From the IMG/VR virus record IMGVR_UViG_3300027763_000278, positions 1 through 21,004 of that record: DNA of 21,004 nucleotides; one strand, 5' to 3'. Source of the DNA: a virus. Shown here in pieces: positions 9,818 through 12,576 of the stretch. The notes under the pieces were generated by a model that did not search any database, had not been told where the DNA came from, and worked only from the letters and a program-made list of their open reading frames with translations. The first letter of the stretch is position 1; every line of letters begins with the position of its first letter. A program made the position numbers and the translations under genes.

Positions 9818-10242
9818 TCCAAACACTCCTTAACGCAAATATCAACGCCTGGCAGACTTGAGTAAACCTTTGTAACGTGGATGTTTATGATCTGCGAGTC
9901 GTCATGGTAAACAACCCCGTTCATGCCATCTTCTACGCTTTTTAGGATATTTGAAGCATCAGGCTTCTTTGTTGGCTTCTCTGACCCATTAGAAATGGCT
10001 TCTAGACGCTTTTTAGTGCATGATCTAGGGATTGGTACTCTGATGTACAAATAAAGGCTCACAGGGGTTTCTAGCGGTTCTGAGCTACCCATTGCCTCAA
10101 TTGCAGCATCCTTGATTAAGGCTTCATAGGTTCTTGTCTTCTCAGGGGTGTAGGTACTGACAAAATTACCCCTTTTGACGTATCTAGCCCTTTGTTTGCC
10201 AACAGGGTTAGCGTCTACTTTAAAAGTGACCATGAATGTCAT
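9814..10242 (-). CDS. RusA-like Holliday junction resolvase
   Basis: A 142-residue protein. RusA-type endonucleases cut four-way DNA junctions and are common in phage recombination clusters. Visible features are NPVGKQRARYVKRG (12-25), TYTPEKTRTYE (30-40), and the acidic catalytic block KPDASNILKSVEDGMNGVVYHDD, giving D95, D105 and D114/D115. Length is close to the family norm of about 120-140. The ATG at 10242 overlaps the methyltransferase stop (ATGA) and has GGAGA at a fair distance; upstream in-frame ATGs would overlap further. It lies directly after the methyltransferase and before the PP-loop gene. Confidence 0.88.
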   Translation of the reverse strand: MTFMVTFKVDANPVGKQRARYVKRGNFVSTYTPEKTRTYEALIKDAAIEAMGSSEPLETPVSLYLYIRVPIPRSCTKKRLEAISNGSEKPTKKPDASNILKSVEDGMNGVVYHDDSQIINIHVTKVYSSLPGVDICVKECLE

Positions 10243-11069
10243 ATTAAGATTCTCCATGCGGTAGCTGCACACAAGGGGACTTGTCCATTACCAATGGCTT
10301 TAAGTCTGTCCACCCCAGAGGCCAACCCATTAGCCACTCGACCCACATTGGGTTCAGTTTGCCACCAATGCCTTGTTCCGAATCCCGTACTGCTTGGTTG
10401 ATTGTGTATTGCGCCGAATGTCCCGATTTGCGTTTTGGTGTCCAATTCGGCTGTGTTCCACGTTGACCGCAATTTGCATCTGGTGTCGGCCATGTTTGTA
10501 TTGCCAAGCTTAACGCTGTCCCACCTTGTTTGTATTTCGTTTTTCTCAGTCCCGTATCGCTCGAAACTGGCGTTGGCCATTTTCCCGACCAGCCAAAATC
10601 TATCCCTCTGATGGTTTGCTCCAACGTCTGCTGCTCCCAACACTCCCCATCTCGCATCAAACCCCATTGCGGCCAAGTCTCCAAGAACTCTTCCAAGCCC
10701 CCGAGAAGTGAGCATTGGTGAGTTCTCCACAAAGACAAATCGGGGTCGTACTTCGTAAATGATCCTCGCCATTTCTCCCCACATTCCGCTTCGTTCTCCG
10801 TCAATGCCTGCTCCTTTTCCTGCAACTGAGATGTCTTGGCATGGAAATCCTCCAGATACAACGTCAACAATTCCTCTCCACGGCTTTCCGTCAAAGGTTT
10901 GAACGTCATCCCAAATCGGGAAAGGCGGGAGAAGCCCGTCATTTTGTCTGGCGCACAGTACGCTTGCGGGGTACTGCTCCCACTCGACTGCACAGACTGT
11001 TCTCCATCCAAGGAGGTGTCCTCCAAGAATGCCTCCACCAGCACCTGCGAATAAAGCCAACTCATTCAA
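10239..11069 (-). CDS. DNA (cytosine-5) methyltransferase
   Basis: A 276-residue C5-type methyltransferase that would methylate cytosine in a specific DNA site using S-adenosylmethionine. Motif I is LFAGAGGG (6-13); motif IV is GGFPCQDIS with the catalytic C77; motif VI is VENSP (E115, N116, with Ser in place of the usual Val); motif VIII is QRDRFW (154-159); the C-terminal motif is RLKAIGNGQVP. The region between motifs VIII and X, where target recognition lies, is short. No ATG start exists; the only plausible start is TTG at 11069, with AAGGA just four bases upstream. No partner restriction enzyme is nearby, so it is probably an orphan protecting phage DNA. Nearly the whole gene is overlapped by another same-strand open frame. 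Confidence 0.9.
   Translation of the reverse strand: MNELALFAGAGGGILGGHLLGWRTVCAVEWEQYPASVLCARQNDGLLPPFPIWDDVQTFDGKPWRGIVDVVSGGFPCQDISVAGKGAGIDGERSGMWGEMARIIYEVRPRFVFVENSPMLTSRGLGRVLGDLAAMGFDARWGVLGAADVGANHQRDRFWLVGKMANASFERYGTEKNEIQTRWDSVKLGNTNMADTRCKLRSTWNTAELDTKTQIGTFGAIHNQPSSTGFGTRHWWQTEPNVGRVANGLASGVDRLKAIGNGQVPLCAATAWRILI
10244..11065 (-). CDS. Overprinted Trp-rich protein nested in the methyltransferase gene
   Basis: A 273-codon frame, shifted by one base, lies wholly inside the methyltransferase gene. Its ATG is 4 bases after the methyltransferase TTG, sits eight bases from AAGGA, and overlaps the upstream gene's stop as ATGA. Its TAA is 5 bases before the methyltransferase stop. The protein has ordered-looking motifs: FSRLSRFGMTFKPLTESRGE (44-63), KYDPDLSLWRTHQCSL, TWPQWGLMRDGECWE, two WPTP segments, and the end LNPMWVEWLMGWPLGW. 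From memory, proteins with this ending occur as separate open frames in phage genomes; this was not checked. No catalytic function is recognised. Either it is a true second product, or its openness is a by-product of methyltransferase codon use. Confidence 0.55.
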   Translation of the reverse strand: MSWLYSQVLVEAFLEDTSLDGEQSVQSSGSSTPQAYCAPDKMTGFSRLSRFGMTFKPLTESRGEELLTLYLEDFHAKTSQLQEKEQALTENEAECGEKWRGSFTKYDPDLSLWRTHQCSLLGGLEEFLETWPQWGLMRDGECWEQQTLEQTIRGIDFGWSGKWPTPVSSDTGLRKTKYKQGGTALSLAIQTWPTPDANCGQRGTQPNWTPKRKSGHSAQYTINQAVRDSEQGIGGKLNPMWVEWLMGWPLGWTDLKPLVMDKSPCVQLPHGES

Positions 11070-11839: not shown

Positions 11840-12063
11840 TATTGACTCCTATTGACTTAAATACAAAACGCCCCAAGTGCGCATGACGAGTTAATTCGCT
11901 TATACATTTGGCCTTGTTCCACCATGTACCAAATGCTTTACCAGTCGCTTAACCTACGCTGGTCGGCAAACAGGGGGTGTTTCCTGATGTCGGTGTTTTC
12001 TTCCAAGCCATCCATGCAAATGCGCTGCTATCGTGTGGAGTACGGATGCAGAGAGATGGACGT
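11840..12063 (-). other. Non-coding leader between small RNA and replication gene
   Basis: About 220 bases with no supported gene. It contains an inverted repeat CATTTGG (11905-11911) / CCAAATG (11929-11935) and loosely paired CCAG/CTGG arms near 11941-11963. Short minus-strand frames exist but lack ribosome sites. It may be a structured 5' leader for the replication-type gene. Confidence 0.45.
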
Positions 12064-12164
12064 AAAAAAAGCCACTTAGCTCTACCCTCGGTGAGAACCC
12101 TAGAGCAAAAACCAAGGGCGAGAGTAGAATTAAGTGGCTTCAATTGGTCGCTTCTCACGGCAAC
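12064..12164 (-). ncRNA. Putative structured small RNA with intrinsic terminator
   Basis: Read on the minus strand, a promoter at 12197-12171 would start a transcript of about 100 bases. The outer stem is AAGCCACTTA/TAAGTGGCTT (12140-12131 with 12078-12069), followed by T7 (12070-12064), a good intrinsic terminator. Inside, CTCT/AGAG and CCCTTGG/CCGAGGG extend the stem. Loop bases TTCTCAC (12097-12091) are complementary to the 5' leader GTGAGAA (12158-12152), allowing a pseudoknot. GCTCTA in the loop can also pair with the TAGAGC of the right arm, giving a rival fold. It is either a free regulatory RNA or an attenuator for the genes beyond. It matches no RNA family I recognise. Confidence 0.55.
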
Positions 12165-12170
12165 AACTTT

Positions 12171-12197
12171 ATTGTACACAAATTTTTAGTGTGTCAA
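12171..12197 (-). promoter_or_regulatory. Putative promoter for the small RNA
   Basis: Consensus -35 TTGACA (12197-12192) and near-consensus -10 TACAAT (12176-12171) on the minus strand. The spacer is only 15 bases, short of the ideal 17. The spacer holds ACAC/GTGT half-sites that could form an operator. It lies immediately after the stop of the HTH gene. Confidence 0.55.
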
Positions 12198-12207
12198 GAA
12201 GTTTTTT

Positions 12208-12576
12208 TCAAATATATTGATTATTTGTGATTTCGTTAGTTTTTGGTCTGCCAAGCAAACGAATAGCCTGTGAGTTCATAACCGCATACTCAGCCTTGGT
12301 AAAGATACCTTGTGCGTTGCGTATGTCAAAGGGGTTTAGCTTGTTGTATGGCTCATCATTGGCGGCTTTTGTGGCCTCAATCATGTGTGGTTCTAGGGTG
12401 TATTTCATTATCCAAGACCTACCCATCTTAATCTTTATAGCCGTAAGTTCCTTCTTACGAATCATTTTCTTGCAAGCAGCGACAAGTGAATTCCTTGGGA
12501 TGCCTGTCAAGTTCTCCATGTCATAGGATGTTAGCGATCCATTCTGGAGGCATTTAATGATGGCTTCTTGGGTCAT
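12208..12576 (-). CDS. Helix-turn-helix DNA-binding protein
   Basis: A 122-residue protein. Residues 1-50 form a likely winged helix-turn-helix (TSYDMENLTGIPRNSLVAAC, then a basic wing KKELTAIKIKMGRSWIM). The C-terminal half ends with IFTKAEYAVMNSQAIRLLGR, a helical segment often found at the end of small phage DNA-binding proteins. It is probably a transcriptional regulator or the origin-binding half of a split replication initiator, since the replication-type domain is encoded downstream. The ATG overlaps the previous small gene's stop. It lies between two promoter regions, including one with the operator-like palindrome, so it is a candidate binder of those repeats. Confidence 0.65.
   Translation of the reverse strand: MTQEAIIKCLQNGSLTSYDMENLTGIPRNSLVAACKKMIRKKELTAIKIKMGRSWIMKYTLEPHMIEATKAANDEPYNKLNPFDIRNAQGIFTKAEYAVMNSQAIRLLGRPKTNEITNNQYI

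Follow-up and report, generated by a model that had tools for sequence, protein, structure and literature searches.

Comparative sequence analysis of RNA1, a predicted small RNA gene of phages with a covarying kissing helix

The window analysed here, a freshwater phage record of 21,004 bases, carries on its minus strand a stretch of about 100 nt, RNA1, which from comparison with its relatives in IMG/VR phage contigs is a phage RNA gene, provided with both a promoter and a terminator of its own. The comparison establishes the family, its helices, the kissing helix, the position of the promoter and the terminator. The reading of these features that is preferred here, at a probability of about 0.6, is that RNA1 is an independent structural RNA gene of the phage whose product would act in trans, probably via a protein. 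Action as a folded, protein-bound object, and not by pairing with a target, appears to be the most likely mode, since the invariant letters of the RNA (GUUG of P1, GU/AC of the kissing helix and CC..UU/AA..GG of P2) lie in helices, while its loops, its linker and its other single-stranded stretches vary among relatives.

Transcription unit and fold

The initial annotation had placed at positions 12064-12197 a promoter of the form TTGACA-15-TACAAT, followed by an RNA of about 100 bases and a terminator, all of which are confirmed in the sequence (Table 1). RNA1 has a minimum free energy of -43 kcal/mol, compared with -26.4 +/- 3.3 kcal/mol for 200 dinucleotide shuffles, none of which folds as well (z = -5.0). 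The promoter was overlooked by a consensus scan that demanded a spacer of 16-18 nt, and the terminator, in which the 11-bp outer stem of P2 is followed by T7, was overlooked by the same scan, which limited loops to 3-8 nt. Among the relatives, TTGAC/TTGCA-like boxes concentrate 33-38 nt upstream of the RNA start, the distance from the end of the -10 box to the first paired base of P1 (GUUG) is 6-7 nt in 95 of 111 non-redundant upstream regions, and the mean best promoter score of these regions is 9.57 of 12, as against 7.04 in shuffles. Moreover, all 111 non-redundant relatives have 6-8 T within the 9 nt that follow the stem. RNA1 thus has what is expected of a stand-alone bacterial-type small RNA gene, namely its own promoter at a fixed distance and an intrinsic terminator. 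In other words, it is the constancy of the -10 position relative to the RNA start which argues that RNA1 is an independent gene, and it is the 6 or 7 nt between the -10 box and the first P1 pair which place the predicted start at the foot of P1. A coding function was considered and rejected; the modelled part of the RNA is 88-120 nt long and its length differences are not divisible by three, making RNA1 unlikely to be a coding sequence.

Table 1. Positions of RNA1, its parts and its neighbours in the window
Feature	Position	Strand	Basis or remark
-35 box TTGACA	12197-12192	minus	sequence
-10 box TACAAT	12176-12171	minus	sequence; 6 nt between its end and the first paired base
Promoter, both boxes with 15-nt spacer	12197-12171	minus	
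RNA1	12164-12064	minus	predicted start 12164 +/-1, 3' end in the T-run; about 100 nt
P1, 5' hairpin GUUGC/GCGAC, loop contains a kissing strand	12164-12147	minus	94-97% of cells paired, changes mostly one-sided
Kissing helix, 5' strand GUGAGAA, in P1 loop	12158-12152	minus	99.5% of cells paired
Long hairpin P2/P3	12141-12068	minus	
P2 outer stem, 5' arm GAAGCCACUUA	12131..12141	minus	97% of cells paired
P2 inner stem, 5' arm UUCUACUCUCG	12119..12129	minus	both-sided changes at 8/8 modelled pairs
P3 apical hairpin	12098..12118	minus	length and loop variable; both-sided changes at 7/7 modelled pairs
Kissing helix, 3' strand UUCUCAC, bulge between P3 and inner P2	12097-12091	minus	99.5% of cells paired
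P2 inner stem, 3' arm CGAGGGUAGAG	12080..12090	minus	both-sided changes at 8/8 modelled pairs
P2 outer stem, 3' arm UAAGUGGCUUU	12068..12078	minus	97% of cells paired
Intrinsic-terminator T-run (T7)	12070-12064	minus	sequence
ORF upstream of RNA1	12576-12208	minus	
RNA2-A, second structured noncoding element	11873..12049	minus	alignment A3; a neighbour, not part of RNA1
Replication-initiation-like gene	11839-11393	minus	

The RNA consists of the short hairpin P1 and the long hairpin P2/P3, joined by a linker. Its central feature is a helix of 7 bp between the 8-nt loop of P1 and a 7-nt bulge in the 3' strand of P2/P3, a pairing that the initial annotation had proposed between GTGAGAA and TTCTCAC and which the relatives bear out. 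The outer stem of P2 covaries at all pairs other than its invariant ones. Between the bulge and the P2 base lie 18-22 nt (20-21 nt in most sequences), whereas the length of P3 is free to vary, and P1 reaching up alongside P2 would fit such a constant strut. The linker between P1 and P2 is usually 8 nt long; it is 3 nt in eight sequences, all with a 21-nt strut, and by our rough estimate of lengths these would be near the limit of what a single molecule can span.

The covariance model R1 was built without the kissing pairs and the loci were collected without requiring them, which avoids selection bias in the kissing-pair test. R1 matches the window at 12167-12067 with 84.5 bits and an E value of 1.2e-16 (close relatives being included in the model), and it scores 50-97 bits in all collected relatives. 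All seven Watson-Crick kissing pairs are present in 59 of the 61 distinct R1 matches, the exceptions being L071 and L140. A relaxed pattern gave at least 120 matches; among those listed, 59 of 60 genuine members have the seven pairs (L190 is the exception) and four other matches are without the fold. In these two sets, homologues whose kissing bases change without compensation, an outcome that the initial annotation had named as refuting, are confined to these three departures, of which L140 and L190 each keep six of the seven pairs. In alignment A4 (57 sequences) the kissing helix is paired in 99.5% of cells and five of its seven pairs change on both sides; the remaining two, a GC and a UA, never vary. 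At least 36 versions of the kissing sequence occur among the distinct RNA1 sequences. For the structure as a whole, 94.1% of A4 cells pair (76.7% in shuffled alignments), 431 cells show a both-sided change (132 shuffled), and the covariation is 0.53, a value that falls to 0.21 on shuffling and to no more than 0.12 when the partners are slid. Covariation of this kind cannot separate kissing within one molecule from kissing between molecules.

In L071 (2061-2161) the strand GUGAGAA faces a mismatched UUUCCAC. This mismatch joins halves of two common versions, and L071 is accordingly likely, on these letters, to be a recent recombinant between two kissing versions. Diversifying selection on the kissing letters was also considered, and is not borne out by closely related pairs, which diverge by 6% in the kissing helix and by 5% elsewhere.

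Distribution and genomic neighbourhood

The family comprises at least about 200 loci, some of which are two views of one contig, and at least 139 distinct sequences, and it is larger than the set collected. A search with only the outer stem as its pattern gave 41 viral contigs, with the same architecture in all except two, and a similar pattern written for another outer stem added 33 further contigs. In the eight matching records that were searched whole there is one RNA1 per record. Among named phages, a homologue is listed in MW202484.1 (Manatee Spring) only. The search for cellular homologues in GTDB genomes gave four pattern matches, none with the structure, and a search of 369 genomes of one class found no RNA1, although this search had no positive control and proves little.

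RNA1 is 93-95% identical in L007 and L031, where the flanks are near background, and in L068, conversely, it is less alike than its flanks. Since the similarity of RNA1 is uncoupled from that of its surroundings in these loci, RNA1 behaves, as far as these comparisons go, as an exchangeable cassette.

In the window, whose genes include a terminase matching standard terminase families, a portal protein, a Sak annealing protein and an SSB, RNA1 lies in a noncoding stretch between an ORF and a replication-initiation-like gene (Table 1). The same stretch contains RNA2-A, and an alignment of 12 relatives (A3) shows both-sided changes at 18 of its 31 consensus pairs. RNA2-A has no Rfam match, and its window sequence taken alone folds no better than shuffles (z 0.3); necessarily, therefore, this element is visible through comparison only. 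Elsewhere in the window two minus-strand ORFs of 276 and 273 amino acids (10239-11069 and 10244-11065) share nearly all of their length while being read in different frames; one of them encodes a C-5 cytosine methylase and the other may also code. The GC skew changes sign at about 12,000-12,500, which may mark an origin or merely a change of gene direction.

A structured RNA follows RNA1 within 10-20 nt. In five loci (L012, L135, L139, L149 and L165) the Betaproteobacteria-1 RNA (RF02932) lies directly downstream on the same strand, some 10-25 nt behind the RNA1 terminator (at 4206-4323 in L012). This is the only one of the downstream noncoding types that is in Rfam, and its position adjoining RNA1 hints, from the sequence of these loci, at betaproteobacterial hosts. 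Further, unrelated stretches of 200-400 nt downstream of RNA1, for example in L163, L130, L176, L202, L210 and L144, are probably structured noncoding RNAs as well. Upstream, tRNA genes end about 40-50 nt before RNA1 in two loci, there being six in L020 (2343-2864) and two in L156 (3889-4058). An RNase P-like run of letters downstream of RNA1 in L156 was discarded, with no Rfam match even at E = 10.

A search by the downstream protein gave 80 loci with the same downstream gene, of which 34 carry RNA1, 32 carry a different element, RNA1b, 14 carry neither and none carries both. RNA1b (in L080, L082, L087, L095, L109, L113 and others) is a non-homologous small RNA of about 150 nt that stands in the place of RNA1 behind a similar upstream region and promoter. 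It has its own promoter spacing, a 5' hairpin and a terminator, together with a helix, at most 10 bp long, in which near-identical copies differ by compensated changes, and it is not in Rfam. That RNA1 and a non-homologous RNA alternate at a single site suggests a role common to both, which is perhaps directed at the host.

Mode of action and rival explanations

On the preferred reading, a sigma-70-type promoter would start transcription at the foot of P1, the P1 loop would kiss the bulge of P2/P3, and the outer P2 stem with U7 would terminate the transcript. The product would be a compact RNA of about 100 nt that begins in P1 and finishes in the terminator, and that as a mature and stable structural RNA may act in trans by binding a host or phage protein, either as a decoy or as the scaffold of an RNP. 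The gene itself would be an exchangeable cassette that stands first in a block of phage noncoding RNAs. A decoy role, as the initial annotation had suggested, is compatible with the features seen. One specific form of it, a CsrA decoy acting through GGA loops, was rejected; GGA is missing from the window loop and from other versions, and where present it is paired in the kissing helix.

It had also been proposed, from the window alone, that RNA1 forms mutually exclusive folds, as an attenuator would. On such a reading, which is the main rival, RNA1 would act in cis as a leader or attenuator; most transcripts from its promoter would end at its terminator, and a phage or host factor bound to the kissing fold would permit read-through into RNA2 and the operon of the replication gene. 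The arrangement of the loci lends this some credit; the next ORF (at least 100 aa, simple ORF calling) is co-oriented with RNA1 in 85 of 108 loci and opposite in 22, a further structured RNA stands within 10-20 nt behind RNA1, RNA2-A and the replication-initiation-like gene follow in the window with no obvious promoter between, and the terminator is present in all relatives. The folds themselves, however, speak against a switch. The GCTCTA/TAGAGC alternative, which is present in the window and would be the antiterminating fold, is kept in only 3 of 21 close relatives, although TAGAGC itself is found in 21 of 21, and the terminator stem is preceded by no more than P1 and a short linker, leaving little room for an antiterminator. 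Moreover, the strands of the kissing helix come from a loop and a bulge, and the helix can form without disrupting the terminator stem, such that it does not make up half of a switch. In L003, L168 and L202, furthermore, the downstream genes are clearly convergent. Attenuation in cis is, on this balance, unlikely.

The kissing helix could, alternatively, be intermolecular, joining RNA1 into dimers or rings in the manner of phi29 pRNA or of ROOL and GOLLD, so as to organise a phage process. The helix takes up almost all of the loop and of the bulge, the length from bulge to base hardly varies (18-22 nt), and some RNAs with a 21-nt strut have linkers of only 3 nt; in ROOL, a conserved kissing pair that was first thought to be tertiary proved to be intermolecular (PMC12286853). 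If RNA1 were to oligomerise, different phages would each have to carry kissing letters of their own that match themselves, and the abundance of compensated versions would then be explained. With the usual linker of about 8 nt, however, P1 should by a rough estimate be able to contact the bulge of its own molecule, a contact that would then be favoured, and the terminase of the window belongs to standard families and not to phi29-like packaging. Oligomers are accordingly regarded as improbable.

Two further explanations are much less probable again. RNA1 might be an RNA anti-CRISPR (Racr) or some other mimic of a host guide RNA, inasmuch as it is a stand-alone phage RNA with a strong promoter in a swappable cassette, and reported solitary repeat units often stand directly behind a promoter (PMC10651486); yet the sole match to a CRISPR repeat (CRISPR-DR58, E 2.6) is on the opposite strand and at chance level, the sequences are too variable to mimic one repeat, and the architecture is unlike that of a solitary repeat. 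An antisense RNA pairing with phage or host mRNAs, another suggestion of the initial annotation, is similarly hard to credit. The promoter, the terminator and the U-rich tail are typical of such RNAs, but there is no conserved single-stranded seed, the unpaired parts vary, and within each phage the kissing 7-mers have no more third copies than chance would give (131 seen, 134 expected).

Comparison with known RNAs

The initial annotation recognised no known RNA family, and this agrees with the outcome of the Rfam searches. RNA1 has no match in Rfam 15 at the gathering cut-off and two chance-level matches only up to E = 10, and no Rfam match lies over RNA1 in 35 related loci. Of the phage RNAs with which it may be compared, phi29 pRNA resembles RNA1 in being small and in having a hairpin loop paired to a bulge loop; in pRNA, however, this pairing joins separate molecules, into a ring on the portal, and the RNA closes a three-way junction, whereas RNA1 has one hairpin after the other with a terminator at its end, and neither the window nor the related loci match the pRNA covariance model. 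The C4 antisense RNA of P1 and P7 is likewise a phage small RNA upstream of co-oriented genes, which pairs with downstream targets; RNA1 differs in that no third complementary copy beyond chance is seen in the same phages, and it has no Rfam match. Racrs, which are stand-alone phage small RNAs with their own promoter, mimic one CRISPR repeat (PMC10651486), while RNA1 mimics none.

GOLLD (659 nt) and ROOL (about 800 nt) are phage-encoded structured RNAs with conserved kissing loops that are often near tRNA islands and form nanocages (PMC12286853). RNA1 recalls them in L020 and L156, where it closely follows tRNA genes, yet at about 100 nt (88-120 nt in the modelled part) and with one kissing helix it differs from RNAs of this kind, which exceed 600 nt and match an Rfam model, as RNA1 does not. 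Betaproteobacteria-1, for its part, is a structured noncoding RNA of unknown function that adjoins RNA1 in the five loci noted above. It has another sequence and fold, is 120 nt long, and has neither a 5' kissing hairpin nor, in its model, a terminator, and RNA1 gives no match at the RF02932 cut-off of 49.4 bits.

What emerges, as far as comparative evidence reaches, is that RNA1 is an RNA family outside Rfam, of distinct architecture and of a known kind, that of the phage structured noncoding RNAs. Being small and sharply bounded, with a strongly covarying kissing helix and many variants, the family is a good target for structure determination, and it should be useful for learning what phages do with noncoding RNAs. 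The block that contains RNA1 holds further undescribed RNAs, and by adjoining it Betaproteobacteria-1, hitherto an orphan RNA, gains a phage context.
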